64,000 bases of DNA from Verrucomicrobium sp. (GTDB taxonomy: Bacteria; Verrucomicrobiota; Verrucomicrobiia; Methylacidiphilales; GAS474): the NCBI GenBank assembly GCA_028283855.1, contig JAPWJX010000003.1, positions 1 to 64,000 of the forward strand, given 5' to 3'. The notes under the pieces were generated by a model that was given only the letters and a program-made list of their open reading frames with translations, searched no databases and was not told where the DNA came from. Below, piece by piece: positions 1,022 through 19,915 of the stretch (position 1 is its first letter; every line of letters starts with the position of its first letter). Position numbers and translations under genes: made by a program.

Positions 1022-1097
<76 letters not shown>

Positions 1098-4866: not shown

Positions 4867-7718
4867 TCCAAATCAAAATCCTGCGTTGCCGCATAGACAT
4901 GGTTCACCATGTAATCAACCCCATCACCCACATTGGCTGTCTCGGAAGGAAAGCTTATCGCAAAACCGAAAACAACCTCTTCCGCTATCGGTAGAAAAAT
5001 AGGTTTCCCCTCCCCAGCGACATACTTGGGATCGAGTGGGTAGAGGAGAAGGAGCCCATTGTTTTTTCCCCGTTGGTTGCGGATATCCGGACCCAATGCA
5101 TAATCGGGCACCTCCTTGTCTTTTTTGGCAGCCGCCTCTTTGCTTGCGGAATAGGCCGCATCATACTGTTCCTTGCTCAGATCGGCCGCCTCGTGTTTTG
5201 GACTGACCAATCTTTTGATGGTATACTTTGTCAACGGTAGTACGGGAGGTTCCAAACCTTCATAGAGCTTTATCTCAAGAGGTTTTCGTTCATAGAGACC
5301 AACTCCCTGAGGAAAACCCGGAAGAACCACTTCCTTCTTCTTATCCTCATTACTGACAATGCCGATTGTCCAGGATGTCAATTCCCCTTGGGAGACTCGG
5401 CGCCTGATGAATTTTGCCAGCATTGCCGAATCAACGCGTTTGGCATCAACATGGGTTTTGTACTGTTCCAAAAACCCGACTACCAAGTCGGGCGACTGAT
5501 TCCGCCAAATTCGGGCCGACCCCTGCGTGGACAGTGAAAAAGGGCCGTTTGCCGCCAGCGAGGCAAGCAATCCTTTGGATGCCTCAAGATTCAAGGCAAG
5601 ACGTGGTGGCGTAAGATCAAAAATGATGGTTTCGTTCAGGGTTCCATTAAATGAAACGCGCATTGGTGTGCCATTGCGCATTTTGTTCAATCCCGTTATG
5701 AGCATCCCGCTGGGATGCATCCTCACTCGGAGCCCGTAGTCCATGGGAGTCGCATGGATATCGGCCATGTGATCCAATTCCAATCTAAGCTCCTCTGATG
5801 CCAGCGCAATATGCCGATACCATTCCCTTAGATCCCCCGGCAGGAACAGACGACAAACATCCACATACCCTGGTCGGTATCCGAACCAACGCCCCATTTG
5901 CATGAGAGTGTCGTACATTTTTGATGTGCGTAGAAAATAACTTACAGAAAGGCCGTCGAGCGTAAGGCCACGGGAAAGCTTGTCCCCACCAATTGCAATC
6001 ACCGAAAGACCATCAGGATGATTGTGATAATCAAGGGCATCGCCGGCCGACCCATTGATTACCCTGACCTGAATCAAGGCGGCCGAATCTTTGATTTCCG
6101 CTTCAATTTTCCCCCAGTTTAACGCGGTGATCATTGGATCATCCGTCACGGATTTTATGGAAGCGAATTTACGTTGAAATTCCGTTTCCCAACGATTCCT
6201 CAGTTCATCAATAATCGAGGGAGTGCGTTCCCCGTCACCATATTTGATCCGATTTTGAAGCAAGGTCAGGTGTTCCCCAATCTGCTCTGCAACCGAGTTC
6301 TGGGTTGAAGTGTAACGCGTAACATGGACCAACATCGAGTTGTGAACCCGGGTCTGTCCCCGGGCCCGTCTGGTGGCACAGGCTAAGATAAAATCGAGGA
6401 TGGCGGTATTCAGTGATTCGGGCAGAGGGCCCGTGGGTCGGGTGCCATTTTTATGAGGTGTGGGCAGCCATGATGACGCATCGTCAACTTCAAGAACAAT
6501 CCCAAGGCCTGGTTCGGCGGGAATCCCCGCATCCGAAGACCCATCAAATCCAAAGACTTTTGCGGGACCAATGTAGTTGGAAGGGACTGGAAGGCTGATA
6601 ATAAAGTTGCGGGGGAAAAGATTGGCACCGTGCTTCTCCGAACTCTCCTCGGGATCGATGAAGATATTTGCGAAGGGCGTGGCGGTATAACCGACATAAG
6701 CGCTTTTCTCAAAGAGACCCAAAAGTTCCCGGATTTTTCCATTGATTGCCGTGACATCGTATTCCGGAAGGGGAACTCCGTCGGAATCGACAGGTATCGC
6801 CTTGGTGTTAATCGATCCGTTATCAGCCTCGTCATCGATGAGAAGAAACGGAAGATCGCGAATAAGGCTGGCTCCTCCATTGCCATCATCCTCCGCCTGC
6901 TGCGAGAGCCACACGATCAGATTTTGAAGGATGCTTTTGTTTTTTTTGACGACCAAGTACACCGGCGTACCACCGCCCGGCTTCACATTGATGCTGGTAG
7001 CCGCCGCCTTTGAAAAATCGCCATTGTCGGCGCTTCCGGTCAGGGCGTCACATCGCAGTTCTTCCGGTGTTTTTACCAATCCGACCCCTGTTCTCTTGGT
7101 GCCTTGGCCATAGGCTGTCGCTCTTGTTGTGTTGAATCCAAAAAAACCCTCGTCGAGACGTATCTGCGTCTGGCTTCTAAGGCTTTTCTGCATTCCACCC
7201 AGAATGATTATCAATTTATATCCGGCATCCGCCGCCTTGCAGACCAATCCGGCATAATTCGCTGTCTTGCCGGACTGAACGCTCCCCATCACCATTCCGC
7301 GGGTATCCCAAGCCCCGGCACGGGTGGGATCCTGAAGCAGGGACAGGATCTTATCCGTTACGCTGTCGAGCTTCGCCACGAGGGGCTCCGGCCAGCCATC
7401 CTTTTTTGTACGAAGCCATGTTGCATATCGGTCCCAGAAGCGCCATTTGATCGACGCTTTCTTTGTGGGCAGCCAAGGAATATGCAGCGTTGAGTCGACC
7501 AAGACGGATTCAACACCGACTGTCACATTGCAATTTGCCAATACCCTGCATATTACCCATTCAGAATCGGGTTTTGTGTCCGCATTGCGGGGGACACTTT
7601 CACATGCCTTTGCCACCGCCTCCCGGATTTCATCCATGGAGGGCGCACGGGTGTGCATCAGAAGAGCCATTGCAACCGTCAAAGCGTGCTGATTGATCCG
7701 GTCTTGAACATCATTCAT
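4863..7718 (-). CDS. P-loop ATPase/helicase with Z1 domain
   Basis: The 951-residue protein opens with about 130 non-conserved residues. A superfamily-II-like motor follows: Walker A GSVQSGKT at 145-152, strand KLIIILGGM at 168-176 and Walker B LLIDDEAD at 292-299. The middle carries the Z1 signature IGGDKLSRGLTLDGL, then TLMQMGRWFGYRPGY, which resembles helicase motif V/VI sequences. Z1 proteins were described from gene neighbourhoods with MORC-like GHKL ATPases and methylases. The role is probably ATP-driven DNA translocation or remodelling that couples recognition to cleavage. Starts and stops overlap the neighbouring genes by 4 nt on both sides. The C-terminal 300 residues have no motif I recognise. 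Confidence 0.9.
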   Translation of the reverse strand: MNDVQDRINQHALTVAMALLMHTRAPSMDEIREAVAKACESVPRNADTKPDSEWVICRVLANCNVTVGVESVLVDSTLHIPWLPTKKASIKWRFWDRYATWLRTKKDGWPEPLVAKLDSVTDKILSLLQDPTRAGAWDTRGMVMGSVQSGKTANYAGLVCKAADAGYKLIIILGGMQKSLRSQTQIRLDEGFFGFNTTRATAYGQGTKRTGVGLVKTPEELRCDALTGSADNGDFSKAAATSINVKPGGGTPVYLVVKKNKSILQNLIVWLSQQAEDDGNGGASLIRDLPFLLIDDEADNGSINTKAIPVDSDGVPLPEYDVTAINGKIRELLGLFEKSAYVGYTATPFANIFIDPEESSEKHGANLFPRNFIISLPVPSNYIGPAKVFGFDGSSDAGIPAEPGLGIVLEVDDASSWLPTPHKNGTRPTGPLPESLNTAILDFILACATRRARGQTRVHNSMLVHVTRYTSTQNSVAEQIGEHLTLLQNRIKYGDGERTPSIIDELRNRWETEFQRKFASIKSVTDDPMITALNWGKIEAEIKDSAALIQVRVINGSAGDALDYHNHPDGLSVIAIGGDKLSRGLTLDGLSVSYFLRTSKMYDTLMQMGRWFGYRPGYVDVCRLFLPGDLREWYRHIALASEELRLELDHMADIHATPMDYGLRVRMHPSGMLITGLNKMRNGTPMRVSFNGTLNETIIFDLTPPRLALNLEASKGLLASLAANGPFSLSTQGSARIWRNQSPDLVVGFLEQYKTHVDAKRVDSAMLAKFIRRRVSQGELTSWTIGIVSNEDKKKEVVLPGFPQGVGLYERKPLEIKLYEGLEPPVLPLTKYTIKRLVSPKHEAADLSKEQYDAAYSASKEAAAKKDKEVPDYALGPDIRNQRGKNNGLLLLYPLDPKYVAGEGKPIFLPIAEEVVFGFAISFPSETANVGDGVDYMVNHVYAATQDFDLE

Positions 7719-9208
7719 TGCTGTTTCTCCATGTATTCAAGAAGGTTTTCCATGATGGCCGGATACAGGTTGAAGGGCTCGGCATTACGGAGATGGTTCA
7801 TGGCATCCTCCCTTGACCTTCCACTTTTAATGATAGATTCCACACACTGGGCAAAGAGTTTGTAGATTTCGATTTCCGGCACGCCCTCAAATGGTCCAGC
7901 CAAGGCGTCCTCCTTCTGGGAGCATTCAAGAACTATGGCTGGCACCGGGATGGACTCCTCGATCAGCCGCAGCAGAGATTCCATCTCTGATTTCCGTTCG
8001 CCCGCAGCCTTTAGGCTGGCGGCTACTGTGGGATGCTTTCGACTGATCTCGTAATGAAGCTTGGATCGGACAGTTTTCTGTATCCAGACAAACGATGCCT
8101 CCGCCTTTTCCCGACCTATGATTTTTCCTCGGTGACGATATACTGCTGCCGCACGGTCCCGGGTTGCCTTTGCAAGCTGGGTGAGCCTTCTCCTCAAACC
8201 ATGAGGAACAACGGCACGGGACTTTTTTACGTCCAGATCCCAATAACGATCGATTGTATTGGGGATATCCACACTGATCCGGGCCAGTTTGTAGTGCTCC
8301 TCCTTGCGGGGTCCCAGACCAAGCCAATCCCCCGCCACCAACAACCGCTTGTTTCGGTAGACGTAAAAGCCCTGATTCGCAAGCCAGCCCGCCGAGCCCC
8401 CCGCCTCCTGCCATTCATGCTCAGGAAGCTTGGTGTGGTGGGGCAAGATATGACAGGAGACAATGATGCGCTCTCCCTTGAAATGGATTTCGCTCTGTTC
8501 CGGATTCTGACACGCCGGATGACCCGTTATAAAGGGATCCCAAGGCTTTACGGTGTTTCCATTGATTTGGAGATGAATTTTCCCGGGTCCGGATATAAAT
8601 CGGTGAAAAGTTATTCCCAGATGCGTTTCCACAGTGGCTGCCAAGCCGAGAAAGCTTTCCTGGCTTGAAAAAATATTCGCATCATCGGACTCAGAATCGC
8701 AAACCCTGTCGAGATTTTCCCAGAGAACCACAGTCCCTGATGTTCGAATGCTTTTTGCGGCTGATTTAAGATTATCCCCCCGGCCTGGCGTGACCTCCCA
8801 GCTTTCTGTCTTTCTGACGTGATCCAAGTCCCAGCAGAGTGAGATTGTCTCCTCGTCAGCCCGCTTGGTTATGACGGTTAGCTTCAGGCATTGAGAGAAG
8901 GAGGCGGTCTTTAAACCAAGGCCGAAACGCCCGAGATCCGATTTTTTTCGCTTTTCCCTAGGATCTTTCGACCCCAACCGCATTGCCTCAATCAGCTCGG
9001 CCTGATCCATTCCATTCCCATTGTCCCAGATCGTGATGAAGGAGTTCCTTCCGGCCCAATGGAAATTGACTCTTATCTCATCCGCACCGGCACTGATGGA
9101 GTTATCAATGATATCGGCCAATGCTGTTGTCGTCTCATAGCCAACCGATCTTAATGACTCCACCATCACTGATGGACGGGGAGGAATGGTGACACCCGCC
9201 TCGCTCAT
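7715..9208 (-). CDS. GHKL ATPase, paraMORC type
   Basis: The start was placed at the ATG at 9208. It overlaps the methyltransferase stop as ATGA, has an AGGGAAGAG ribosome-binding site and begins the conserved domain. An upstream in-frame start would only add shadow sequence. The 497-residue product shows the Bergerat ATP-binding fold: N-box ADIIDNSISAGA at 31-42 (Asn36), G1 box DNGNGM at 62-67 and G2 box GRFGLGLKTAS at 93-103. Position 32, where MutL and GyrB have the catalytic Glu, is Asp. The ATPase domain is followed by an S5-like segment and a basic helical C-terminus. MORC-like GHKL proteins next to Z1 and methylase genes are known from R-M-like neighbourhoods, where a clamp-like remodelling role was predicted. 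Confidence 0.87.
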   Translation of the reverse strand: MSEAGVTIPPRPSVMVESLRSVGYETTTALADIIDNSISAGADEIRVNFHWAGRNSFITIWDNGNGMDQAELIEAMRLGSKDPREKRKKSDLGRFGLGLKTASFSQCLKLTVITKRADEETISLCWDLDHVRKTESWEVTPGRGDNLKSAAKSIRTSGTVVLWENLDRVCDSESDDANIFSSQESFLGLAATVETHLGITFHRFISGPGKIHLQINGNTVKPWDPFITGHPACQNPEQSEIHFKGERIIVSCHILPHHTKLPEHEWQEAGGSAGWLANQGFYVYRNKRLLVAGDWLGLGPRKEEHYKLARISVDIPNTIDRYWDLDVKKSRAVVPHGLRRRLTQLAKATRDRAAAVYRHRGKIIGREKAEASFVWIQKTVRSKLHYEISRKHPTVAASLKAAGERKSEMESLLRLIEESIPVPAIVLECSQKEDALAGPFEGVPEIEIYKLFAQCVESIIKSGRSREDAMNHLRNAEPFNLYPAIMENLLEYMEKQQ

Positions 9209-10734
9209 CTCTTCCCTGCCATTATTTTCCAGACCACGTTTGCAAGCTTGCGGGCAAGAAGAGGGGGAACCGCATTTCCAACCTGACGATACTGGGCTGT
9301 TCTGGATCCACAAAAGAAGTAATTATCGGGAAATGTCTGAATTCTTGCCGCCTCCCTTACAGTGAAACTTCTGCACTGCGTTGGATCATAATGAATGTAG
9401 TAATGGCCATCCTTTGCAATATGGCTGGTTATGGTTCGGCAAGGTTGTGATGCCGGGTTTGCCCGAAAACGGTCATTGAAAAACCGCTCCTTGTTTTGAT
9501 CGAAAATATTGGCGTGATCCGGAAGCAATTCGTCTGGAAACTTCTGAAGATTGGGCGAGACCCCCTCTGATTTGGCATGGCAGGAGGAAAATAGGTATCG
9601 GTGTAGATCGGATTCGATGTGCGCCCGCGAACTGTGGTTGGCAACACCCCCCATATGCGGGTCGATAAACCATGTTGCTTCCGAGTGGAGGGTGTAGGGC
9701 CTGCATGCAACAAACTCACCGCCACGATCTTTTTGAGGGCGGTTGATTCCATCCAAGGACTCCTCAATGGTTTCAGCCAGCTTTTCACCCCCCCTCCTTT
9801 TGATTGAGGAAAGATGTGTGCGGATGCCACGCACCGCCGTCACCCATTTCTCAAAGTTATCCTCCCCACTCTGGGACAGTCCGCTTCGAAGTCTTGGCAG
9901 TCCCTGAAGAACCTGTGAAATTGAGCATGGTTTTGATGACTTGAGAAGAATGCTAGGCTGATCCACATCCAGATCCTCCCGAATTCCGAGAAGGATCACA
10001 CGATGCCGCATCTGTGGTATGCCATAATTTTCACATTCAATGATGTAATCGGCCGCCTTGAATTCCGGAGACTTTCCAGAGGGACGGCTCCTAGCCTCTT
10101 TTGAAAATGAAAATATCCGGTAGCGCTTTCCACCAATGATTCCTGTCGCGCCTCCGGGATCACGCAAATCCTCAAGAATTCTCTGGAAAATCGAGCCATC
10201 AATGTCGGCACTCAACAATCCCTTCACGTTTTCCATTACAAAAACAGATGGACGAAAACGCGCAACAATGCCCAAATATTCCCGATAGAGCCCGACTCGC
10301 ACATCGGTCTTTTTGATGCCCCTGTTTCTGGCGCGCCCGATTGTTGAATAAGCCTGACAGGGGGGGCCGCCAACAAGAACCCAGTCCTTTGCGCCGTTCA
10401 GGGCCGCCGCAATTCTGCGATGGACTTCACCGGCCGGGGTGATACCCAGGGTGGCTCTCCAAGCCTCCTCCTCCGCCTGTTGTCTTTGAAATGGCCACGC
10501 CTCGTAAAGATTCTCAAGTGAGATTTCCCCACGGATCATCCTGTAGTAGTCGTCCGGTTTTCGACGCGTGAATGCGCGATAAAAGGCACGAAGACTGAGC
10601 GTGGAGTGCGCCCACTCCTCCATTTCAATCGAAAGCCTGATGTGGAAGGGGTGGCTGCCGACCTTGGAATAGGATGAGAATCCTTCCCCGAGTCCACCAG
10701 GTCCGGCAAACAAGTCAATTACAGGAATGTTCAT
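9205..10734 (-). CDS. dcm: DNA (cytosine-5) methyltransferase
   Basis: The 509-residue protein has the C5-methyltransferase motifs in canonical order. Motif I is DLFAGPGGLGEGF at 7-19. Motif IV is GGPPCQAYS with catalytic Cys126. Motif VI is ENV at 168-170 and motif VIII is QMRHRVILLG at 241-250. Motif IX is PCRTITSHIAKDGHYY and motif X is RQVGNAVPPLLA near the C-terminus. The target-recognition region between VIII and IX is long, about 200 residues. It should mark self DNA for the restriction subunits downstream. It overlaps the Vsr-like gene before it and the GHKL gene after it by 4 nt each. The gene symbol denotes the family, not the E. coli recognition site. Confidence 0.95.
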   Translation of the reverse strand: MNIPVIDLFAGPGGLGEGFSSYSKVGSHPFHIRLSIEMEEWAHSTLSLRAFYRAFTRRKPDDYYRMIRGEISLENLYEAWPFQRQQAEEEAWRATLGITPAGEVHRRIAAALNGAKDWVLVGGPPCQAYSTIGRARNRGIKKTDVRVGLYREYLGIVARFRPSVFVMENVKGLLSADIDGSIFQRILEDLRDPGGATGIIGGKRYRIFSFSKEARSRPSGKSPEFKAADYIIECENYGIPQMRHRVILLGIREDLDVDQPSILLKSSKPCSISQVLQGLPRLRSGLSQSGEDNFEKWVTAVRGIRTHLSSIKRRGGEKLAETIEESLDGINRPQKDRGGEFVACRPYTLHSEATWFIDPHMGGVANHSSRAHIESDLHRYLFSSCHAKSEGVSPNLQKFPDELLPDHANIFDQNKERFFNDRFRANPASQPCRTITSHIAKDGHYYIHYDPTQCRSFTVREAARIQTFPDNYFFCGSRTAQYRQVGNAVPPLLARKLANVVWKIMAGKR

Positions 10735-11183
10735 TTGCCCTTCAAAGCGGTCTTTTCAAAAGCATTAGATCTTTGGGAAATTAATCTGGTGAGACGGGAG
10801 ATGCAGTATCCTGGATTTCTGCGCAGATCACCCTCCCAGAATCTGACTGGCATCCATCCTTTTTCTTTTAGGATCCGATTGACGTGACGATCCCGCCTCC
10901 GGTTGCCCTCAATTTTTTTCCGCCAAAATTCCACATTGGTTCCTGGAAGCTTTGAGCGGGTTGGATGTCCATGCCAGAAATCACCATCCACAAACACCGC
11001 CAGCCGGATGGACCGGAATACGAAATCAGGTCGTCCGTAAAGATTCTGCCTTCTTCTCCAGCCTGTAATTCCAAATTTCTTCATCAAAGTGATCAGGCAA
11101 AGCTCCGTCGAGGCATTGCCGCCCCCCCGTATTTGAGCCATGACCAGAGATCGCTTTTCCACTGTAAAAACATCGGGACACAT
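10731..11183 (-). CDS. vsr: Vsr-type endonuclease, first gene of the defence operon
   Basis: The 150-residue product aligns with very-short-patch-repair endonucleases: RSLVMAQIRGGGNASTE, GRPDFVF with catalytic Asp53, AVFVDGDFWHGHP at 62-74 and NVEFWRKKIEGNRRRD. Vsr nicks T:G mismatches formed by deamination of 5-methylcytosine and commonly sits beside dcm. Here the Cys of the usual GCFWH motif is Asp, and the later Cys of the EC-x-L element is Gly. The structural zinc ligands of E. coli Vsr are therefore missing. It may still repair mismatches or may act as a restriction nuclease. The ATG at 11183 has no obvious ribosome-binding site. The next gene starts in its stop codon (ATGA). Confidence 0.88.
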   Translation of the reverse strand: MCPDVFTVEKRSLVMAQIRGGGNASTELCLITLMKKFGITGWRRRQNLYGRPDFVFRSIRLAVFVDGDFWHGHPTRSKLPGTNVEFWRKKIEGNRRRDRHVNRILKEKGWMPVRFWEGDLRRNPGYCISRLTRLISQRSNAFEKTALKGK

Positions 11184-11307: not shown

Positions 11308-12249
11308 TCACCTGACCACTAAAACGATTCGAAAGCCAATGGTGGAGCGATGGGTGCCAGGGAAGGCGTAATCACGTGCTGAAGTCTTGATGTCCAAACC
11401 GTCCTGCCATGAAGAACCTCGCAAAATCCGATGGGTCTTTCCTTCGTCCGGCACATATTGCTTCTCAACGAAATTTTGCGAAAAAGGCATTCCGTCCGGC
11501 CCGGCGGTCATTTCTGGATCCTTCACTCGGATCTCTTCGCCAAACCAGTCCATGCACCACTGCCAAACATTCCCACTCATATCGTAAAGCCCGTAAACAT
11601 TTGGAAGAAAGCTACCGACCGGACTCGTTCGAGGAAATGAATCATTGTACCCTGAGATAATCTCAAGGTTTGTCGGCCAATCGGGCGCACGCACTTCCTC
11701 TCCCGCAAAATTCGCCGCGTCTTTGGGAGGAGGCCATTGATTGCCCCAAGGATACACTCCAGGGCCGGCGGCCTGACTCCATTCGTCATCCGTCGGCAGG
11801 CGATATTCTTGTTCGGCCTTCAACGTTCCGTCGGCACGCTCTTTCCCCGTCAACCAAGCACAAAAGGCCATGGCATCGTCCCAGCTTACATCCACCACCG
11901 GGTCATCCGCACTCTGCTTAAAACCGGGCTTTTTCCAATCCCCTGAGGGTTTTCCATCGGGGTCATTCTCCTGATAAACCCCTTCCGGGATGTATCCAGA
12001 CTGTGCCACAAAAGCCTCAAAATCCTTTACACGCACGTCGTATATCCCAAATAGAACTTGGCGATCGGGAATAGGACAAAATTTCATTCCCAAACTATTT
12101 TGCCAAGGTTCCCCATCCTTAAGATCGATACCCTCTGCGGCAAAGATTCCAAATTGAAAAACGAGGATAAAAACAAAAGGAAGTCCCCCAAGCAGACGCC
12201 ACTCGCGATTGCTGAAGTCTTGCATGTTAATGAGGGATGACAAAGGCAT
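11308..12249 (-). CDS. Secreted FGE-sulfatase (SUMF1-like) domain protein
   Basis: An N-terminal hydrophobic stretch (LLGGLPFVFILVFQFGIFAA) is a signal peptide or anchor. The rest is a formylglycine-generating-enzyme/SUMF1-type domain with NSLGMKFCPIP, VVDVSWDDAMAFCAWLTG, YRLPTDDEW, PWGN, YDMSGNVWQWCMDW and RGSSW...GFRI. The paired cysteines of true FGE (the RGGSW-xx-C region) are absent, so sulfatase activation is unlikely. Such domains also occur as ligand-binding (CLec-fold) modules. The start is uncertain: ATG at 12249 follows a GGTGG stretch, GTG at 12258 lies upstream and ATG at 12225 gives a tighter signal peptide. It follows, and depending on the start overlaps, the coiled-coil gene. 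Confidence 0.8.
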   Translation of the reverse strand: MPLSSLINMQDFSNREWRLLGGLPFVFILVFQFGIFAAEGIDLKDGEPWQNSLGMKFCPIPDRQVLFGIYDVRVKDFEAFVAQSGYIPEGVYQENDPDGKPSGDWKKPGFKQSADDPVVDVSWDDAMAFCAWLTGKERADGTLKAEQEYRLPTDDEWSQAAGPGVYPWGNQWPPPKDAANFAGEEVRAPDWPTNLEIISGYNDSFPRTSPVGSFLPNVYGLYDMSGNVWQWCMDWFGEEIRVKDPEMTAGPDGMPFSQNFVEKQYVPDEGKTHRILRGSSWQDGLDIKTSARDYAFPGTHRSTIGFRIVLVVR

Positions 12250-13021
12250 TACCGCCACCCAGTCCGATCACCGAATAACTGGAGGGATCGCTTTTTCCTG
12301 CTGGGTCGCCTTGTTCATCTGACAAGCTCGAGCCGTATAACTCCGCCTTTCTCTCGTAAGCCATTTGTACGCCTGGAGAAAGCTTCTGCCACTCCTGCTC
12401 TGCGTATATTTCCGCTTGGGCATTGCTCAAGCCCGCGAGCGGACCTCCAGTATAATGCGCTCCTTTGTTGTTCAATATGTACCGTCCCGATTGGCTCTTT
12501 AATTCGTTGAGATAGCGCCTAAAGCCATTGACGGTCGGTTTTGGAGACGTCGAATCAACCGATTTTTGGGCACCATTTTGAGCCAGCTTGGTTTGAATGC
12601 CCCTGAGTTGCTCCTGAAGCTTGTTGATCATCTCCTCCTTTTCATTCGCGGCATCCAAGGCGTGAGCCAGCCCGTCAGACAACTCACTGTCCTTTTGGGA
12701 AAGGGCAGCAACCACCGACCTTTCTGCTTCCGCTTTTTGCACAGCCTTCTCCTTTTCGCGCAAAGCCTCCTCCCGATCTGCTTGGAGCTTTTTTAGATTT
12801 TCCTTAAGCGATGCCTGCTGCCCGTTCATCTCAGCAAGAAGCTGCTGTTTCTCCGCCAATGCGTTTTGAAGTCCCTCTACCACTGTCTGGGAGTCTTTTC
12901 TGGCAGCCTCCATCATGGACACCGTTTTCTGGCGTTCATATTGGTGAACAAGAATCATTCCTCCCGTTGTGCAGATGATTGCCGATATCAATGCCCCCAT
13001 AGCCTGTTGAAAGATGCCCAT
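12227..13021 (-). CDS. Membrane-anchored coiled-coil protein with HMG-box-like C-terminus
   Basis: The 264-residue protein has one membrane helix at about 8-27 and then a long charged coiled coil at about 35-148 rich in Glu, Lys, Gln and Ala. A Ser/Pro linker and a globular tail follow. The tail (about 160-230) reads PTVNGFRRYLNEL...LSNAQAEIYAEQEWQKLSPG-x-Q-x-AYERKAELY. Its pattern of an aromatic helix, a W-x-x-LS turn and Y-x-x-KAE is that of an HMG-box. I know no bacterial family with this exact layout, so function is unassigned. It is transcribed divergently from the XRE regulator and followed by the FGE-sulfatase-domain gene, with which it probably forms an operon. Confidence 0.7.
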   Translation of the reverse strand: MGIFQQAMGALISAIICTTGGMILVHQYERQKTVSMMEAARKDSQTVVEGLQNALAEKQQLLAEMNGQQASLKENLKKLQADREEALREKEKAVQKAEAERSVVAALSQKDSELSDGLAHALDAANEKEEMINKLQEQLRGIQTKLAQNGAQKSVDSTSPKPTVNGFRRYLNELKSQSGRYILNNKGAHYTGGPLAGLSNAQAEIYAEQEWQKLSPGVQMAYERKAELYGSSLSDEQGDPAGKSDPSSYSVIGLGGGNAFVIPH

Positions 13022-13058: not shown

Positions 13059-13112
13059 TACGCCCCGTTGGGCCGTGTTGGTCAACATTCAAATACGGCG
13101 TAATGGGGCGTA
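13059..13112. promoter_or_regulatory. Inverted repeat between the XRE regulator and the coiled-coil operon
   Basis: TACGCCCCGTTGGGCCGT at 13059-13076 and ACGGCGTAATGGGGCGTA at 13095-13112 are inverted copies matching at 15 of 18 positions, separated by 18 bp. The right half overlaps the first start codon of the XRE gene. The location in the divergent gap fits an operator used by this regulator for autoregulation and control of the leftward genes. This is inferred from position and symmetry. Confidence 0.55.
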
Positions 13113-13339
13113 TGCCCTTGACGGCTGAAGAACACAAAGTTCTGAAGAGACTGGGAGAAAATGTCCGACGCTCTCGCGTTGCTTCTGGCTCCACACAGGA
13201 GCAGCTGGCAGAAAAGGCTGATCTGAATCCGAGAACGGTCCAGAAGATCGAAGCGGGCCGCCTCAATATCCTTGCTACGACCATTTACCGCATTAGCCGG
13301 GCCCTGAAGGTGGGTGCGACTGACCTGCTGGGCCCTTAA
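13103..13339 (+). CDS. XRE-family HTH transcriptional regulator
   Basis: The 78-residue protein is a single lambda-Cro/CI-type helix-turn-helix domain: LKRLGENVRRSRVASGSTQEQ, LAEKADLNPRTVQKIEAGR and TIYRISRALKVGATDLLG. There is no second domain, as in small phage and island regulators. Two start codons are possible, ATG at 13103 and ATG at 13112. The inverted repeat ends exactly at the second, which would suit self-repression. It is divergent from the membrane coiled-coil gene. It may control the element's accessory operon or its excision and replication genes. Confidence 0.88.
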   Translation: MGRMPLTAEEHKVLKRLGENVRRSRVASGSTQEQLAEKADLNPRTVQKIEAGRLNILATTIYRISRALKVGATDLLGP

Positions 13340-13389
13340 ATTGGTTAAAAAGACGACCTTTATCCCTATCCTTACGGCGGCGGGATGGC

Positions 13390-13413
13390 TTTGTTAACCG
13401 GTTTTTAAGACTG
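13390..13413 (+). repeat. Repeat copy A (TTTGTTAACC...GACTG)
   Basis: A 24-bp sequence beginning TTTGTTAACC and ending GACTG recurs at 14695-14716 with one mismatch and a 2-bp gap. This copy lies between the convergent XRE gene and the small gene at 13405. Confidence 0.4.
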
Positions 13414-13421
13414 GCTTAAAA
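13403..13421. terminator. Possible bidirectional weak terminator
   Basis: TTTTAAG-ACTGG-CTTAAAA is a perfect 7-bp A/T-rich inverted repeat between convergent genes, followed rightward by TTATTTT. The stem is weak, and it overlaps the stop codon of the leftward small gene. Confidence 0.35.
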
Positions 13422-13593
13422 TTATTTTCTGATCGAGCTGGCGCTCCAAGGTAGCGACGCGTTCCTGAAGGCACTTGCTTATCTTCACCTGCATTTCCAC
13501 CTCCACTTTCAGACTGCCTACCATCTCAAGCATTGCATTGAAGAGAACTGGATCAATGGGCGGTTCCGGAGGCTTATTCTTTTTGAAAATCAT
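13405..13593 (-). CDS. Small hypothetical coiled-coil protein
   Basis: The 62-residue product has a basic Pro-rich start (MIFKKNKPPEPP) and then one continuous amphipathic helix (MLEMVGSLKVEVEMQVKIS...VATLERQLDQ). It looks like a small coiled-coil or oligomerisation protein. The ATG at 13593 has a GAAGAG-like stretch a little upstream. No family is recognised. Composition is like its island neighbours. It is convergent with the XRE gene. Confidence 0.5.
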   Translation of the reverse strand: MIFKKNKPPEPPIDPVLFNAMLEMVGSLKVEVEMQVKISKCLQERVATLERQLDQKIILSQS

Positions 13594-13744
13594 GGAGTGC
13601 TCTTCAGTGACAACTTGATCCTGCCCCTAAAGCCTCAATCACAATCCTCTTCGGACCTATAGCCGAATGATTTAAGAAGCCGCTCCCACACCCGTTCAAT
13701 AGTTTGCTCCATCGCGGGCATTGAATTTGAAAATACAACTCTAG

Positions 13745-14668
13745 CTAGTCCTCTTCAGCTTCTGGTGGCTTACCAGGAGGATCAAGAAGGTTCTGGCGCA
13801 CACATTCAACGACCCCGTCCATGTCATGGTAGAACTCTATCGGTAGTTTATCGAGGCGCTTCAGGCGGTTGTTATTGTCCAGCTTCCAACCCGCAGAATC
13901 GTTGATGCTACAAAATTCCCCACTTCCATTACCGTAATCCCATATGCAGGGCACAAGCTCTTCTCGTGCCACGTTGGTCATTCCAAAAAAACCATCCTTA
14001 AGCACCAAGATGCGCTCAGGGCTCATAAACGAGATGTCGTCGTAGATTTTGGGAAGGACCTCCAAGCCCTTTTCATCGAAGACTCCCCATCGCCCATTGA
14101 AGATTAAAGGTTTTCCTGTTCGCACCGCATGGGCGGGGGCTCCGTGATAGCCAAAGCATATTAATAACCCGCAAAAAAGTGAAAGAGCAGGGGTAATATT
14201 GATACCCTTCGGATGACGGTAAAGATTGAGGCCCACCTCAAAATAGCCATCGCTCCAAGAGGTGACCATATGATAGCGGGGCGGAAGAACCCAGGTTCCA
14301 TCCATTGACAATACACCGAATAAATCACCCCGGCGGACATGAGCGTAATGGTTAATAATCCTGATTTCATCCCATTCCGCATCGAGCAACTGCTCCCCCA
14401 GATAGTTATAAAGACCGAATTGATTCAGTCTCCTGACCCGAATGAATCCCTGCCCTCTTCCTCTTGCAAATCGAGGAACATGGTCATAGAGCATTTCAAG
14501 CTTCAGGCTTTCGATCACCTGCTGTTCAAGCTCATGGGAAAGCTCAGGGTTCCATGCTTCGTCGGGAGATGTGTCTCCGTTAAGAAGCCGTGGATGGTAC
14601 AGCATGGATTCATGGCCATGGGCTGCCCGATAGTAAGAGCCATCCGCCTTGCGAAGAGCTGGGTACAT
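13745..14668 (-). CDS. WG-repeat protein
   Basis: The 307-residue protein has at least four degenerate WG (KWG) repeats of about 35 residues: FGLYNYLGEQLLDAEWDEI, FGVLSMDGTWVLPPRYHMV, WGVFDEKGLEVLPKIYDDI and FGMTNVAREELVPCIWDYG. WG repeats form small beta-propeller-like or solenoid units. They are found in bacterial proteins of mostly unknown role, some linked to contact-dependent or stress functions. There is no signal peptide. It is divergent from the sigma factor gene with a 75-bp gap. The 13594-13744 stretch downstream holds no gene I would defend. Confidence 0.75.
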   Translation of the reverse strand: MYPALRKADGSYYRAAHGHESMLYHPRLLNGDTSPDEAWNPELSHELEQQVIESLKLEMLYDHVPRFARGRGQGFIRVRRLNQFGLYNYLGEQLLDAEWDEIRIINHYAHVRRGDLFGVLSMDGTWVLPPRYHMVTSWSDGYFEVGLNLYRHPKGINITPALSLFCGLLICFGYHGAPAHAVRTGKPLIFNGRWGVFDEKGLEVLPKIYDDISFMSPERILVLKDGFFGMTNVAREELVPCIWDYGNGSGEFCSINDSAGWKLDNNNRLKRLDKLPIEFYHDMDGVVECVRQNLLDPPGKPPEAEED

Positions 14669-14694
14669 AATAGCCTCTACGTTCTGCCGCCTAT

Positions 14695-14716
14695 TTTGTT
14701 AACCAGTTTTTGACTG
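14695..14716 (+). repeat. Repeat copy B, upstream of the sigma factor
   Basis: This 22-bp sequence starting TTTGTTAACC and ending TTTTTGACTG matches 13390-13413 with one mismatch and a 2-bp gap. It lies in the divergent gap between the WG-repeat gene and the sigma factor, where it could be a binding site or part of a promoter. TTGACT inside it resembles a -35 box, but no -10 box at proper spacing is clear. Confidence 0.4.
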
Positions 14717-14743
14717 ACGGAACGGGGTTGGTAAGCTGACTTC

Positions 14744-15454
14744 ATGCCCGTCCCATCCCCGGATGATGCCTCTTTGACGGAAGATCACTCCAAGTTGGTC
14801 ACGGATCACCTTCACCTCGCGCAGGTCGTGGCGGGTGACTACAGCAATATTTCTGGGCTGGACCGTGACGATGTTCTTCAGGAGGCCCGGAAAGCCTTAA
14901 TCCACGCCGCCCTGAAATTTGATCCCTCACGGGGAACGAAGTTTTCCAGTTACGCGGGCCAAGCCATTCGCAATACGCTGAAGGATCTCTATGGCCGCCA
15001 AAAGAAAATCAAAGAAATGGAAGCCGTCCATTTGGAAGAACCGATTTTCAGAGAGGGCGAGAGGAATGAGGACAATCTAACGGGCTATGATGTGACGACA
15101 GAGCAACGGGAAAATGACCAGCAAATTGAAAAAAGAGAGTCCAATGCCATCATCGCCAGCCAAATTGCCCGATTGCCGGAAAGAACCCAAATAATGGTGC
15201 GCGGTTTTATGGCAGGAAAAACCTACGCTATTTTGGCCGAGGAAATGGGGATAAGCCGACCTGCGATATGCACCATTCTGCATGATGCCTTCAAAACCCT
15301 GCGGCAAAGGCTATACGAGGGGGGATATCAAAGCGACGGGAGCGCCCTCTATGCTCCCCGTACCCATCGGGAAATCTCCGGCGAGGAGATGCTTCTTGCC
15401 TATCAGGAGCTTTTAAATGAAGCGCGTGCCATCCAACAGACAGGCTCCAGATAG
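14744..15454 (+). CDS. Element-encoded sigma-70 family RNA polymerase sigma factor
   Basis: The 236-residue protein has region 2 (DRDDVLQEARKALIHAALKF, then DPSRGTKFSSYAGQAIRNTL) and region 4 (LPERTQIMVRGFMAG, then YAILAEEMGISRPAICTILH), joined by a charged linker. Regions 1 and 3 are absent. This two-domain layout is that of small alternative sigma factors. The core region-2 sequence is closer to sporulation/phage-type sigma factors than to ECF ones. On a mobile element it could drive late or excision-related genes. The ATG at 14744 is preceded by a poor ribosome-binding site. A tail of about 50 residues after region 4 has no known motif. Confidence 0.85.
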   Translation: MPVPSPDDASLTEDHSKLVTDHLHLAQVVAGDYSNISGLDRDDVLQEARKALIHAALKFDPSRGTKFSSYAGQAIRNTLKDLYGRQKKIKEMEAVHLEEPIFREGERNEDNLTGYDVTTEQRENDQQIEKRESNAIIASQIARLPERTQIMVRGFMAGKTYAILAEEMGISRPAICTILHDAFKTLRQRLYEGGYQSDGSALYAPRTHREISGEEMLLAYQELLNEARAIQQTGSR

Positions 15455-15475
15455 ACCCAATTAGGTTCTGAAACA

Positions 15476-15949
15476 CTATCCATCTTGGAAGTTCACGCTC
15501 GGCATTTGATCATCTGGAGCGGACGGGTTGAGTTTTTTGGCGGCCTTAGCCGCCGCTTGGTCGAGAACGGCTTGGAGAGACTTTCGCATGGCGGGGCTGT
15601 TCTCCAGCCGTTCGCGGATGGTGTCGAGGCTTTCCTTTTGCACGCTGACAATCTCCTGACGCTGGATGGGCAAGCCAATCATGTAGGAGGCGTACATCTT
15701 TGCACCAGCCTCGCGGGCACTCCAATCAGGCACATCTCCGTAAACTTGATGATTCACCAATGCCCGCTTGGTGGCAGTCATCAGGTTTAGAAGGTTCTGC
15801 GCAAATACCTCAGGTGGGCATAGTGTCGCCATTGCCCGCGTAATGGATGGAGCGATCTCTGTAGGAGTAGGCGTGTGGCCTGCGAGGATTTTCTCCGCTC
15901 GTGCCTGCATATCGGCCTTTATTTTAGCTGAAATACTTTGAGGTTTCAT
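15476..15949 (-). CDS. Hypothetical protein, possibly small-terminase-like
   Basis: The 157-residue protein is largely helical. A central block (LLNLMTATKRALVNHQVYGD, then VPDWSAREAGAKMYASYMIG, LP) resembles the VPDxxAR...AL/YxxxxG block seen in many phage small-terminase-like proteins. A charged helix and an Ala/Lys-rich tail follow. If so, it is the only packaging-type gene here, which is typical of satellites that redirect a helper phage's packaging. The match is a motif-level impression only. The ATG at 15949 lies next to a GTACTGTAC site. Confidence 0.4.
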   Translation of the reverse strand: MKPQSISAKIKADMQARAEKILAGHTPTPTEIAPSITRAMATLCPPEVFAQNLLNLMTATKRALVNHQVYGDVPDWSAREAGAKMYASYMIGLPIQRQEIVSVQKESLDTIRERLENSPAMRKSLQAVLDQAAAKAAKKLNPSAPDDQMPSVNFQDG

Positions 15950-15951
15950 AT

Positions 15952-15960
15952 GTACTGTAC
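15952..15960. promoter_or_regulatory. GTACTGTAC site at a gene start
   Basis: GTACTGTAC lies 2 nt upstream (on the minus strand) of the 15949 start codon. A one-mismatch version, GTATTGTAC, lies 7 nt upstream of the Xis-like gene at 17686. Shared placement over the ribosome-binding region suggests a common operator. Confidence 0.3.
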
Positions 15961-16054
15961 GCGCACGCGGGCGCGAGGGATTTTCATGTAATACTAGTGA
16001 TTCTATAAGACAGCGTCCAAATTGAGACGTCTGTAAAAAGTTAAGACATCTCGG

Positions 16055-16726
16055 TTATTTTCGATAAGAAGGCCAATCGCAGATAACGACGCCACCCGTC
16101 TCACAGGCTCGAGTCCAAATGGATGGACCAAGCACTTCTTCCGCCTCCCGCTCGGTGAGATTGGCAATGAGCAAAGTCGTCAGCATGCTGCCATACCGAT
16201 GGTCTAGAATATTGTTGAAAACTTGACGCTCCCAAGAGGTTCCCAAGGCCTCATTTAGTTCGTCGATCACCAAGAATTTCACGGTGCGGAAACGCTCCAT
16301 GATCGCTCCTTGGTCCGGCGTGCCCGTGCGCTCACTCCATGTAGCCTTGATAGCTCCGAAGAGATCGACGGCGCGGTAGTAACGGCCTGGCGATTTCTTG
16401 GCTACCGCCCGACGATTAGCAAGCCATGTGGCAATTTGGGTCTTTCCAGGTCCTCGATCGCCCAAAAGAAGCACCGTGCTGCCGCTGAGAGCCCCAACCA
16501 GTTCGCGAGCCTTTGCCAAGCTGGGGCCCCGCATTTTATGAAGCTTGAGAATATGCCGTAGGGGGTATCCCGCCTCTTGAAGCGCCTCTAGGACACGTTT
16601 TTCCTCCCGTTCCTTCTCAGTGGGTATAAAGCTTGTTTTAGAGCCGTTTAAGGGGGTTCTTGGCTCGCTGCTCCATGTCGAGAGGGCCGCTTCCGCCGCA
16701 GCCTTTGCTGTCATTATTCTTTCCAT
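16055..16726 (-). CDS. DnaC/IstB-type AAA+ ATPase (helicase loader)
   Basis: The start chosen is ATG at 16726, which has an AAAGGAACC ribosome-binding site. A longer frame upstream is only the shadow of the preceding gene. The 223-residue protein has Walker A GDRGPGKTQIA, Walker B FLVIDELNEA, a sensor-1 strand MLTTLLIANL and an Arg-finger-like WTRACETG. This is the AAA+ layout of DnaC/IstB replication helicase loaders. The first 90 residues carry a charged helical N-terminus. It begins 89 nt inside the 3' end of the replication-initiator-like gene, so the two are transcribed and probably translated together. Role: loading the host replicative helicase at the element's origin. Confidence 0.82.
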   Translation of the reverse strand: MERIMTAKAAAEAALSTWSSEPRTPLNGSKTSFIPTEKEREEKRVLEALQEAGYPLRHILKLHKMRGPSLAKARELVGALSGSTVLLLGDRGPGKTQIATWLANRRAVAKKSPGRYYRAVDLFGAIKATWSERTGTPDQGAIMERFRTVKFLVIDELNEALGTSWERQVFNNILDHRYGSMLTTLLIANLTEREAEEVLGPSIWTRACETGGVVICDWPSYRK

Positions 16727-17396
16727 AGGTTCCTTTCTTTTGGGGTTTTTCTCCTTTGCACCACTTTTCCAGTTGGGACTGCCAATTGGTGATGGCCCGA
16801 CCTGCACCGTCCACCCAGCTGACGGCTTCGTAGTGATGCCAAAATTCCTCCGCTTCGGCCCGAGACATGCGCCTGTTGGCTCCAACCGCCAGAACATCTT
16901 CCAAGCAACCAGGCCAGAACGGCAACCGATCACGTTGTGGGGAATGTACTTGTTCTTTAATCGAAGATGAAATTGAAGATGAAGGGGTTGAGTTTTGGTT
17001 AACCTGGATGGTTGGAGCTTGCTTACCCCCTCCGTTAACCAAAATAGGGTTTCCCCCTAACTTTCCGAATTCCGTACGCATCTTTCTCAGCTTTTCGTCC
17101 CGGACCATTCGCCGGTTCACCAAAGCACCGCTCTCTAAGTCTCGATCGGCCACCCCTCGTTCCATAATACAGCTTAGGGTCTCAGTTAAATTTTGCTTCT
17201 TCAGACCCAGAATGTGCGCCAACGACTCTTCGGACATCGCCTTTCCATTTGGCAGCAAGAGCACCCCACGAACCGGCGACTCATGCATGAGGCAGAGAAT
17301 TTCAAACCAGATGCCTCGCTGGTGAAAAGACATCGACTGCACGCCGGGGTCTTTACGCCAATCGGCTGGATAGAACTGGAAGGCCGGCATCTTCAT
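16638..17396 (-). CDS. Phage-type replication initiator (DUF1376-like N-terminus)
   Basis: The start at 17396 follows GGAGTAGGC and is 2 nt after the upstream stop. The 252-residue product begins MKMPAFQFYPADWRKDPGVQ, then SMSFHQRGIWFEILCLMHES, the winged-helix opening of DUF1376/phage replication proteins (O-like). Then come a low-complexity Ser/Gln linker (STPSSSISSS) and a C-terminal helical domain with EAEEFWHHYEAVSW, like the loader-interaction end of such initiators. With the DnaC-type gene that follows, it forms a replication module. The origin is probably inside or near these genes. The A/T-rich linker region around 16960-17040, with two GTTAACC motifs, is a candidate. Confidence 0.75.
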   Translation of the reverse strand: MKMPAFQFYPADWRKDPGVQSMSFHQRGIWFEILCLMHESPVRGVLLLPNGKAMSEESLAHILGLKKQNLTETLSCIMERGVADRDLESGALVNRRMVRDEKLRKMRTEFGKLGGNPILVNGGGKQAPTIQVNQNSTPSSSISSSIKEQVHSPQRDRLPFWPGCLEDVLAVGANRRMSRAEAEEFWHHYEAVSWVDGAGRAITNWQSQLEKWCKGEKPQKKGTYGKNNDSKGCGGSGPLDMEQRAKNPLKRL

Positions 17397-17398
17397 GC

Positions 17399-17686
17399 CT
17401 ACTCCGATGCTGACACGACATGGCCACAATTCTCCTGGATGGCGGTCAGGAAGCTGAGAATGGATTCCAGTTCGAAAAGCCTGGTACCCTTGATCTGACC
17501 AGATGCTCGAATGGAGACCGACCGGATCAGGCCTTTGGTCGCCAAATCGTAGAGTTTGGTTCTGCTGAGGCCCGAGTAGAACTCCAAGCCCCCCTTAGGA
17601 GCCCTAATCCAAACGGGGCGTGAATTATGCCGTTCGGCCAACAATGCCCCGGCCTGACTGGGTCGGGTAAAGGTGTTTTGTTTCAT
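17399..17686 (-). CDS. Excisionase-like winged-HTH DNA-binding protein
   Basis: The 95-residue protein has a MerR/Xis-type winged helix: GLSRTKLYDLATKGLIRSVS, then IRASGQIKGTRLFELESILS. This is the helix-turn-helix plus wing typical of AlpA/Xis proteins that bind near att sites and bias integrase toward excision. It is first of the leftward trio with the replication initiator (2-nt gap) and loader. Its start is 7 nt from a GTATTGTAC site. It may also act as a repressor of this operon. Confidence 0.75.
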   Translation of the reverse strand: MKQNTFTRPSQAGALLAERHNSRPVWIRAPKGGLEFYSGLSRTKLYDLATKGLIRSVSIRASGQIKGTRLFELESILSFLTAIQENCGHVVSASE

Positions 17687-17693
17687 CTGGACC

Positions 17694-17702
17694 GTATTGT
17701 AC
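17694..17702. promoter_or_regulatory. GTATTGTAC site upstream of the Xis-like gene
   Basis: One mismatch from GTACTGTAC at 15952-15960 and similarly placed just upstream of a start codon. It may be an operator for the xis-rep-loader operon. Confidence 0.3.
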
Positions 17703-17742
17703 GACGGTCTCAGGGATGAATTGCCGAAACAGAAGGGTAATC

Positions 17743-18600
17743 TTATTTCGGCAATTGGCGACGCGCTTTCATCTCCTTAATGTCAGCAAAAAAGGAATGC
17801 ATAAAACCTTGGGGATCAATCTGAAGAGCAAGCTTCGCCATGCGGGGCAGCTTTGCATTCAGGTTTTTTCTACCTCGGGGAGCCGCCACAAGCTGCAGCC
17901 TCAAGATTTTGCGGCAGTGGATCCCCATGTCCTCCGCCCTATCGTAAGGATATCCGGTTTTATCGAACTTTTCTGCCGCAACCCTCTGCAGCTGATCACA
18001 ATTCCAATTGTACTCCTCAATTATCGGCGCAATCAGGGTTAACCAAGCGTCCAACTCCGGGTGCGCCCATCTTGCCGGCTGGGGATCAAGAGCTTTCGAT
18101 CTAAACACCTTGTATTGCTTGGGGGTCGCATTCTGAATGAATTCCCAAATCCGCGGGTCGCTTCTCATTGCATAATTAGCGGCTAACCAACCCATTCGAG
18201 AGGCAAGAGCCATTCCTTCATCCGGATGATCGTGCTCCGGACATCCTTTTCTTTTGAGAAGACTGAGATAGTTGTTGGCCGCAAAAGCCCATTCGTAAAA
18301 GCGAACGGTAAACCACCGTCGAAAGCTCGTGCTGAAATTCCACTGCGATAGGTTTTCACCCCTTATGTGAAATTCCTTCACAAGCGAAGTAAAAGCGAAT
18401 TTGTAGAGCTCATGATCAGTCCTATCAAAAACTGTCAAAAGGCGACCTTTTCCATTTTTTAAATCGTCCAACGCCTTTTTGATTTTCTTGAACGTAAGCC
18501 CGGTAAACTCCCACTCCTTTTGGTCTTCTTCGCTTTGCAGGTGAGCACTCAGGGATCGGTTCGGGTCAACATCGTAGGAAAGTGGGCGACTCAAACCCAT
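17743..18600 (-). CDS. Hypothetical protein of the element
   Basis: The protein is 285 residues from ATG at 18600, 11 nt after the integrase stop. An alternative ATG at 18705 would overlap the integrase by 95 nt and add a basic Ser/Lys-rich leader. The body is mostly helical and rich in Trp, Phe and Lys, for example FRRWFTVRFYEWAFAANNYL and EFIQNATPKQYKVFR. No catalytic motif, signal peptide or membrane segment is visible. It is co-directional with the integrase and may be an element-specific accessory gene. Family not recognised. Confidence 0.6.
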   Translation of the reverse strand: MGLSRPLSYDVDPNRSLSAHLQSEEDQKEWEFTGLTFKKIKKALDDLKNGKGRLLTVFDRTDHELYKFAFTSLVKEFHIRGENLSQWNFSTSFRRWFTVRFYEWAFAANNYLSLLKRKGCPEHDHPDEGMALASRMGWLAANYAMRSDPRIWEFIQNATPKQYKVFRSKALDPQPARWAHPELDAWLTLIAPIIEEYNWNCDQLQRVAAEKFDKTGYPYDRAEDMGIHCRKILRLQLVAAPRGRKNLNAKLPRMAKLALQIDPQGFMHSFFADIKEMKARRQLPK

Positions 18601-18610
18601 GTTGAGATCG

Positions 18611-19789
18611 CTATTTTTCCTTAATTTGGAAGGAGGTGAGGAATGAGGGGACTTTTTGGATTTCTTTGCGCATCGCTTCGAGTTCATGGTGGGTATATCG
18701 CTCATGCACTTTGCTCTTATGCCCCGAGAGTTTCATTCGAATCTCCTGAGAGACTCCTTGATTAGCCTGCTCGGATATGGCTGTGTGCCTGAAGCTGTGA
18801 AAGCCGAGTGAGAAGAAACGACGTCCCTTTCCAGGGGCTTTGGGGACAGATTCCTCTTCAGCATAAATACCGGCTTGAGCCATTAGGCGACGGAAGGCCA
18901 AAGACAAACCGCCCACACCTCCGGTTTTTTTTGCACTCAGTGATGGGAACAAAGAGGCCTTAGCAGTCTTGGAGTTGACGGACAGACCACTCAAATAGTC
19001 AATGATGTCGGGATGCAGGGGATACTCTTCCCCCCTTCCCTTGTTGGTATGCCGGGTCTTCTGCGGCCTTAAGCGAAGGCTTTGGCGTTCGGCATCGATG
19101 TTCTCCCACGTCAATTTTGCGGCATCACCAATTCGCAAACCATGACAGGCCCCAAAAAGAATCATTCCTCTCCATTCAATGTCAGCCACCGAAAAAAGAG
19201 CTCCTATCTGCTCACGGGTGAAGGTGTCACGGGTGTTATGGCTGGCAGAGAGAAGATCAACCGCTTCGGCAGGGTTACTTAAAATCAGACCTTGTCGCCT
19301 GGCGGTGTTGAATGGAATGCGGAGGGTTTTCACCGCCATGTTGGCGGTGGTTGAGCTTTTGCCCTGCTCCACCTGCAGATCGCGAAATCCCTCGATGTGC
19401 CTGGGAGTGATGGCGGAAAGGGGCTGAGTGGCTTTCTTGTCCAAGAAGACAATGAAGTCTTCGACTGTCTTCCGATAACGGAGAGATGTCCCCTGAGCCT
19501 TGGTCATCGTTTTGCTTTGAACCCACTCCAGAAGGAAACTTTTTGTATCTGTAAACGAGAGGCTTTCTCCTTGGGCACGCTGATAGATGTCCCCGATGAT
19601 CTTTCGAGCCTGAACCTCAGTCAGCTGTCCTTGGCGGGCAATTTGAGCGGTACGTTCGATTTCCATGCACACCTGCATGGCCTGCGCACGGTTTCGTTGT
19701 TTAGTGCTTCGCTTTAGCTGCTTCCCGTCAGGGGCGGTGTAGCAACAGATCCAGTAGGGGCTGTTTTCGCGCTTCCAAAGGCTGGCCAT
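18611..19789 (-). CDS. int: Tyrosine recombinase (integrase)
   Basis: The chosen start, ATG at 19789, gives 392 residues and begins MASLWKRENSPYWICCYTAP, the usual arm-binding N-terminus. A GTG at 19816 would start inside the arm repeats. A SAM-like core-binding domain follows (about 80-180). The catalytic domain has Arg219 (HGLRIGD), Lys244 (QKTRH), His331 and Arg334 (HSFRHT), His357 (LSGHKS) and Tyr365 (ERYTHHELEAM). All catalytic residues are present, so it should be active. It lies immediately inside attR with its promoter region over the AGTGAGAAT repeats, so binding there could both recombine and autoregulate. Confidence 0.95.
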   Translation of the reverse strand: MASLWKRENSPYWICCYTAPDGKQLKRSTKQRNRAQAMQVCMEIERTAQIARQGQLTEVQARKIIGDIYQRAQGESLSFTDTKSFLLEWVQSKTMTKAQGTSLRYRKTVEDFIVFLDKKATQPLSAITPRHIEGFRDLQVEQGKSSTTANMAVKTLRIPFNTARRQGLILSNPAEAVDLLSASHNTRDTFTREQIGALFSVADIEWRGMILFGACHGLRIGDAAKLTWENIDAERQSLRLRPQKTRHTNKGRGEEYPLHPDIIDYLSGLSVNSKTAKASLFPSLSAKKTGGVGGLSLAFRRLMAQAGIYAEEESVPKAPGKGRRFFSLGFHSFRHTAISEQANQGVSQEIRMKLSGHKSKVHERYTHHELEAMRKEIQKVPSFLTSFQIKEK

Positions 19790-19810: not shown

Positions 19811-19885
19811 ATTCACCCATGTTTTTGATGTGCGTCAATGCTTATTATAAGTGATTTATGCGAGCTAAAGAGGCCGAGATAGAAT

Positions 19886-19915
19886 CGCGAGTTCGAGTCC
19901 TATCATTCGCTCCAG
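19886..19915 (+). repeat. attR: degenerate second copy of the tRNA-Gly 3' end
   Basis: It shares the 15-bp core TCGCGAGTTCGAGTC and the terminal CGCTCCA with attL, 25 of 30 identical. The acceptor-strand remnant CATTCGC can still pair with the tRNA 5' strand through two G-U wobbles. The T-stem 3' strand is ruined, so this is a displaced and drifted tRNA end. Confidence 0.7.

Follow-up and report, generated by a model that had tools for sequence, protein, structure and literature searches.

Gene content and borders of the island

The stretch of DNA analysed here (hereafter the window: 64,000 nucleotides, positions 1 to 64,000 of contig JAPWJX010000003.1 from Verrucomicrobium sp., assembly GCA_028283855.1, phylum Verrucomicrobiota) carries near its left end a genomic island of about 18.8 kb (approximately positions 1098-19914), which is probably a phage satellite resembling in plan the phage-inducible chromosomal islands (PICIs) and loaded with a restriction cassette of the Mza/MORC type. 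An earlier note, made from the nucleotide sequence, had described a satellite-like backbone at 13103-19789, with an integrase (int), an excisionase (xis), a replication initiator, a DnaC-type loader, a sigma factor and a gene resembling that of a small terminase (TerS). These genes are real and family searches agree with the list, albeit with a weak match for Xis and no family for the suspected TerS, but the element extends further, as judged from two copies of the tail of a tRNA-Gly gene. Gene families were assigned by Pfam, PHROG and PADLOC scans. The backbone and the borders comprise the following features (TerL, large terminase; HTH, helix-turn-helix; att, attachment site):

1022..1097, + strand: tRNA-Gly(GCC), probable attachment gene (ARAGORN); the element-side att core copy is 1068-1097
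12227..13021, - strand: orf264, with an N-terminal hydrophobic stretch, a coiled coil and a C-terminal HMG-box-like domain, the last of these also present in the phage gene that lies downstream of TerL
15476..15949, - strand: TerS homologue, 157 aa, with homologues beside TerL in phages
16055..16933, - strand: DnaC-type helicase loader with an intact Walker A motif (GDRGPGKT); PHROG 50, E-value 6e-25
16638..17429, - strand: replication initiator / replisome organizer; PHROG 13246, replisome organizer, E-value 2.8e-8
17399..17686, - strand: AlpA/Xis-like HTH_17 protein; weak Pfam HTH_17 match, E-value 0.007
17743..18705, - strand: orf320, placed after int, without a Pfam or PHROG match
18611..19789, - strand: tyrosine integrase; PF00589, E-value 1.5e-13; PHROG integrase, E-value 3e-45
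19885..19914, + strand: attR-like repeat of the end of the tRNA-Gly gene, exact over 15 bases and drifted after them

The last 30 bases of the tRNA-Gly gene agree with 19885-19914 at 25 of 30 positions, including one exact run of 15, and the second-best place for this tail in the 64 kb reaches 19/30. The start codon of int lies 95 bases from the copy. With the tRNA-Gly gene as the starting border, the tail copy therefore gives an element of ~18.8 kb. Its right border fits a break in composition at ~19.9 kb: the G+C content is ~51% from near the left end of the window up to this point and 65-70% to the right of it, and that of the genome is roughly 68%.

The open reading frames (ORFs) of the backbone are all intact, and int, the initiator, the DnaC loader and the TerS homologue are encoded in one direction. 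In the integrase the R-HxxR-H-Y residues are discernible in the sequence, and the protein is ~31% identical over its full length to the integrase of another verrucomicrobial element (L068, see below). The AlpA/Xis-like protein has a counterpart at the same position in that element (L068:6353-6664, BLAST E-value 8e-8), which itself matches HTH_17 with an E-value of 1.3e-6. The initiator finds phage replisome organizers in tblastn searches (E-values 3e-12 and 1e-8). In 289 genomes of the phylum, orf320 has no homologue but itself. Pfam and PHROG scans of the island proteins gave no convincing match to a structural gene; capsid, portal and tail genes are lacking, as the earlier note had stated, and so is TerL.

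The small terminase homologue and its phage relatives

The 157-aa protein encoded at 15476-15949 belongs to no PHROG or Pfam family. Genome searches identified homologues in G021 (E-value 1.6e-15), G277 (Luteolibacter pohnpeiensis) and G036, profiles added G487, G427, G262, G399 and G135, and IMG/VR yielded more, up to 40% identical. Single-protein scans of IMG/VR revealed no close relatives of the TerS homologue of the window itself, nor of orf264 or orf320. In eight phage contexts, five from verrucomicrobial genomes (G021, G277, G427, G262, G135) and three from IMG/VR lineages, the homologue lies 0.03-3.3 kb from a TerL gene; in G021 the TerL-like gene starts only 30 bases after it, and on one short IMG/VR contig (L021) TerL is found on the opposite strand. 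The neighbouring TerL is a genuine large terminase according to its matches, to annotated large terminases (tblastn E-values 2e-28 and 1e-25), to the terminases of Stx phages (E-value 3e-7) and to PHROG terminase (E-values 1e-8 to 2e-10). The L. pohnpeiensis homologue of the 157-aa protein also matches a PHROG small-terminase family (E-value 0.006). In the phage of G262 (L067:10669-13533) TerL fits the TerL profile in two halves with ~360 residues between them, as with an intein.

A structure-based comparison with small terminases, suggested as a check in the earlier note, was weakly positive. The predicted model has a mean pLDDT (predicted local distance difference test) of 66, and Foldseek returned nothing under an E-value of 0.05 in BFVD, the top named match being a TerS at 0.058. 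When 248 PDB chains were compared in a second look, rows one to four were small terminases of the SPP1 type (Z 3.3-3.9 over 48-56 residues), and row eight was the TerS of G20c. It is the genomic context beside TerL that makes the case. The guess that 15476-15949 encodes a small terminase is well supported by its company in phages, and binding of a pac site and activation of TerL are its predicted functions.

The HMG-box-like domain of orf264

The C-terminal part of orf264 is related to the gene that follows TerL in the phage of G021 (BLAST E-value 5e-12) and in Luteolibacter (E-value 9e-6). We aligned seven members of this domain; a leave-one-out hidden Markov model (HMM), trained without the window copy, recovers orf264 with an E-value of 1e-13, and its only other matches among 4,453 ORFs are phage genes located downstream of TerL and genes of two islands. 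The domain model has a pLDDT of 83 (above 90 in the core), and its four best matches in the PDB second look are all HMG boxes (Z 4.0-5.2); a BFVD search with the same model gave nothing significant. Since orf264 shares this domain with the phage gene beside TerL, the island is, strictly speaking, not free of late-region material.

Verrucomicrobiota phages encode such HMG-box-like domains on the downstream side of TerL at L008:11507-13764, L010:2960-3943, L020:15166-15858 and L005:12216-13781; HMG boxes of the eukaryotic type are unexpected in tailed phages. In a phage contig from IMG/VR (L023:13625-14165), a tRNA-Arg and a tmRNA lie between TerL and the HMG-box-like gene.

Related elements in other Verrucomicrobiota

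Two further elements have an integrase, an HTH_17 protein, replication genes and TerS in the same plan and no TerL. L068 (genome G399) encodes, in this order, int, orf329, an HTH_17 protein, a 765-aa primase/helicase and TerS; L065 (genome G487) encodes int, orf272, HTH_17, a CHC2/Toprim primase, a DUF3987 helicase, TerS and an HMG-box-like gene, with a type I hsdM further to the right. Both genomes are Verrucomicrobiae and represent two other families of the class, G487 sharing its genus code with L. pohnpeiensis. The cargo and the replication genes of both elements differ from those of the window island, and att repeats were searched for in both and not found. A third locus, in G036 (L009:11873-18022), reads int, an ORF, an HTH_17/xis-like gene, a primase, an AAA gene, TerS and a resolvase and then meets the contig end; it may be a fourth island or a truncated full prophage. 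Counting the window island, each of these four loci has a different ORF next to int. A candidate in G471 (L069), with a weak TerS match (E-value 6e-4), was put aside.

Profile searches detected no TerL of this family in the genome of the window (G000), in G399 or in G487 (each ~96% complete), nor in G036, and no helper prophage with such a TerL is resident in the genome of the window. The phage contig of G021 matches the island backbone only in TerS, the HMG-box gene and, marginally, xis; no homologue of the island integrase, initiator or loader was found on it.

Cargo, accessory genes and left flank

The remaining genes of the island, and one remnant at its left end, are the following:

1326..1787, - strand: remnant (~150 C-terminal residues) of a 754-aa gene, by comparison with contig C4 of this genome, which has the gene intact
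1871..3865, - strand: MzaE, AIPR protein (cargo); PADLOC, E-value 5e-95
3862..4866, - strand: MzaD, DUF4420 PD-(D/E)XK nuclease (cargo); PADLOC, E-value 7e-23; PF14390, E-value 2e-54
4863..7718, - strand: MzaC, Z1-domain helicase-like protein (cargo); PADLOC, E-value 4e-193
7715..9313, - strand: MzaB, MutL/MORC-like GHKL ATPase (cargo); PADLOC, E-value 7e-127
9205..10734, - strand: C5 cytosine DNA methylase (cargo); PF00145, E-value 2e-43
10731..11183, - strand: Vsr-type nicking endonuclease (cargo); PF03852, E-value 2e-17
11308..12258, - strand: FGE-sulfatase (SUMF1-like) domain protein, accessory; PF03781, E-value 1e-40
13103..13339, + strand: XRE-type HTH protein; HTH_3, E-value 8e-11; PADLOC Control_protein, E-value 2e-8
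13745..14668, - strand: WG-repeat protein, accessory; PF14903, E-value 1e-13
14744..15454, + strand: stand-alone sigma-70 family factor, 236 aa; PF04542, E-value 7e-11; PHROG sigma, E-value 9e-24

By its gene families the segment 1871-11183, about half of the island, is a restriction cassette of the Mza/MORC type, in keeping with the restriction-type cargo that had been postulated. MORC/MutL-like restriction cassettes (PMC2292703) and similar type II systems (PMC9523054) have been described. As in the MzaABCDE and Dcm-Vsr-MORC-Z1-DUF4420-AIPR systems (PMC9523054, PMC2292703), MzaB, C, D and E are combined with a C5 methylase and Vsr. Unlike MzaABCDE, the island has no full-length MzaA: its 236-aa sigma factor aligns with the 683-aa MzaA model over only ~95 residues. 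The HTH protein at 13103-13339 is possibly a restriction-modification control protein for this cargo. The SUMF1/FGE-like gene (11308-12258) sits between the HMG-box-like gene and the Mza cassette.

The sigma factor itself is complete, with regions 2 and 4, and the PADLOC model of MzaA matches it only over region 2 (model positions 430-523 of 683, E-value 5e-9, 32.9 bits). Its best relative among 40 related genomes is chromosomal and non-phage, located beside an Hsp70/DnaJ/kinase cluster. None of the other phage and island loci of the TerS family that we examined yielded a homologue, and its phage matches are remote. A conserved part for it in the satellite was considered and is unsupported on these grounds; it probably lies outside the conserved backbone and may belong to the cargo or the accessory genes. 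At L054 (G012:C63) a stand-alone sigma factor is encoded beside kinase, DnaJ-like and Hsp70-like genes, possibly in a stress or defence operon.

Part of the left flank is duplicated in the genome: contig C4:1-5464 (L041) contains a copy of window positions 1-2722 at ~97% identity, spanning the left flank, the tRNA-Gly gene and the start of the island, and has 2.7 kb extra, including the intact 754-aa gene, which has no family match. The difference could reflect the ends of the contigs, variation between strains or a deletion, and the backbone is unaffected by it. A pseudouridine-synthase-like gene at 125-980 of the window is split by a frameshift, probably a sequencing error at the contig end; on C4 it forms one frame of 258 aa (L041:4490-5266).

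Satellite, remnant prophage or defence island

We favour the reading of the island as a PICI-like satellite with a restriction cassette because its TerS is linked to TerL in phages, TerL of this family is absent from the genome and the TerL-less plan recurs in other elements; the att copies, the break in G+C content and the domain that orf264 shares with the gene downstream of TerL add to the argument. In its gene plan the island supports the satellite logic of the earlier note, and the TerS identity and the restriction-type cargo are supported as well; the link that the note suggested between the sigma factor and induction by a helper is not.

From these genes we infer how such an element could live. 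Int together with the AlpA/Xis-like protein would insert it at the tRNA-Gly gene and excise it from there, and the initiator with the DnaC-type loader would replicate it on the host DnaB. The island TerS would bind a site in the element and turn the TerL and empty heads of a phage, infecting or resident, towards island DNA. A phage of the G021/G277 type is the candidate helper. The left half of the island may pay its way as a restriction cassette against competing phages.

Several observations weigh against a working satellite. No pac site, capsid-size gene, phage-interference gene or Stl-type repressor was identified in the island, and excision, a circular form, replication and packaging are predictions from the gene content. 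The TerS model is of low confidence with fold matches below significance, and the TerS tree, which has poor resolution, gives no single origin for the island TerS genes and no single island lineage. At 18.8 kb the island exceeds the 12-15 kb typical of PICIs, although "typically" is not a limit (PMC6092414). Five of the 30 bases of the attR copy have drifted, so that the integration may be old, and no empty site is readable in the complete genome of the same genus (G002), where the flank is rearranged: synteny breaks off 466 bases to the right of attR and there is no tRNA at that spot.

The strongest competitor, to which we give limited credence, is a frozen island derived from a prophage, which kept the int-replication-TerS arm, lost TerL and the structural genes, received the defence cassette in their place and no longer moves by being packaged. 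The drift of attR suits it, and so does the retention by TerS and the HMG-box gene of the phage order and direction (TerS, TerL, HMG-box gene), minus the TerL between them. Moreover, the G036 locus has int, an ORF, xis, replication genes, TerS and a resolvase, and in several phages a resolvase follows TerS, so that some full prophages may share this arm. Yet the backbone ORFs are all intact, two other families of the class have the same arrangement lacking TerL with other cargo and replication genes, a pattern not easily produced by independent decay, and the phage contig of G021 lacks homologues of the island int, initiator and loader.

A bolder version of the satellite reading is rather doubtful: a distinct, recurrent Verrucomicrobiota class in which TerS and the HMG-box-like DNA-binding protein, both with counterparts flanking TerL in a local phage family, would form the interface with the helper, the HMG-box protein aiding capture or compaction of DNA at the packaging motor and the sigma factor switching on late genes of the element or the helper, much like the delta activator of P4. 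The role that the earlier note gave to the sigma factor, a switch tying induction of the island to infection by the helper, is very unlikely: a complete two-domain factor does adjoin TerS and is transcribed towards it, but no homologue turned up among the phages and the other islands at the loci examined, the nearest relative is chromosomal and non-phage, and the Mza system has a sigma-like member of its own, MzaA; in the original system MzaA is a sigma-factor protein, and only few related type II systems have mzaA (PMC9523054). Least probable of all, if by little, is a generic integrative defence island whose TerS-like protein has another job, for instance in sensing phages or in regulating the cargo by binding DNA: half of the island is Mza cassette and the TerS fold match is below significance, but the clear TerS homologues with readable surroundings are all beside TerL or in int-replication islands and none in a bare defence locus, and a replication module would be superfluous.

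Comparison with known satellites and implications

Most descriptions of phage satellites come from Firmicutes, Gammaproteobacteria and a small number of actinobacterial hosts. In the open-access literature searched we found no paper on satellites of Verrucomicrobia/Verrucomicrobiota. With PICIs, including the Staphylococcus aureus pathogenicity islands (SaPIs), the island shares int at one end, a putative AlpA-like regulator, a replication module, a TerS of its own (as in some PICIs), the lack of structural and lysis genes and a cargo of phage resistance (PMC6092414); Gram-negative PICIs are induced through AlpA and some have their own TerS (PMC6092414). It differs from them in its host, in having an initiator and a DnaC-type loader instead of pri-rep, in a TerS related to a verrucomicrobial phage family, and in its HMG-box-like protein and sigma factor, and no PICI-specific gene was recognised in it. 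PICIs are further marked by att sites that prophages never use and by genes exclusive to them. We regard the island as PICI-like in plan and refrain from classifying it among the PICIs, because the match of the regulator is weak, the size is above the usual one, and induction, packaging and dependence on a helper are predictions from gene content.

P4 encodes the alpha primase, psu, sid and delta and uses the cos of its helper. None of these four was recognised in the island, which encodes TerS. Common to the island and P4-like satellites are a regulator of the Vis/AlpA type, putative in the island, and a hotspot of defence genes (PMC6092414). The phage-inducible chromosomal minimalist islands (PICMIs) of Vibrionaceae are likewise small and without capsid-remodelling genes, but they are confined to that family and have a reduced gene content (PMC10803314); the comparison here is with their overall description.

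The island and its two TerL-less relatives are three candidate satellite elements in Verrucomicrobiota, and a family of phages that could serve as helper goes with them. A TerS gene unaccompanied by TerL, in combination with a terminal int, HTH_17 and replication genes, provides a signature for finding further elements. The HMG-box-like protein would be a second gene from the side of TerL, an unusual one, held in common by phage and satellite, and the island suggests another possible mobile route for large restriction cassettes of the Mza/MORC type.

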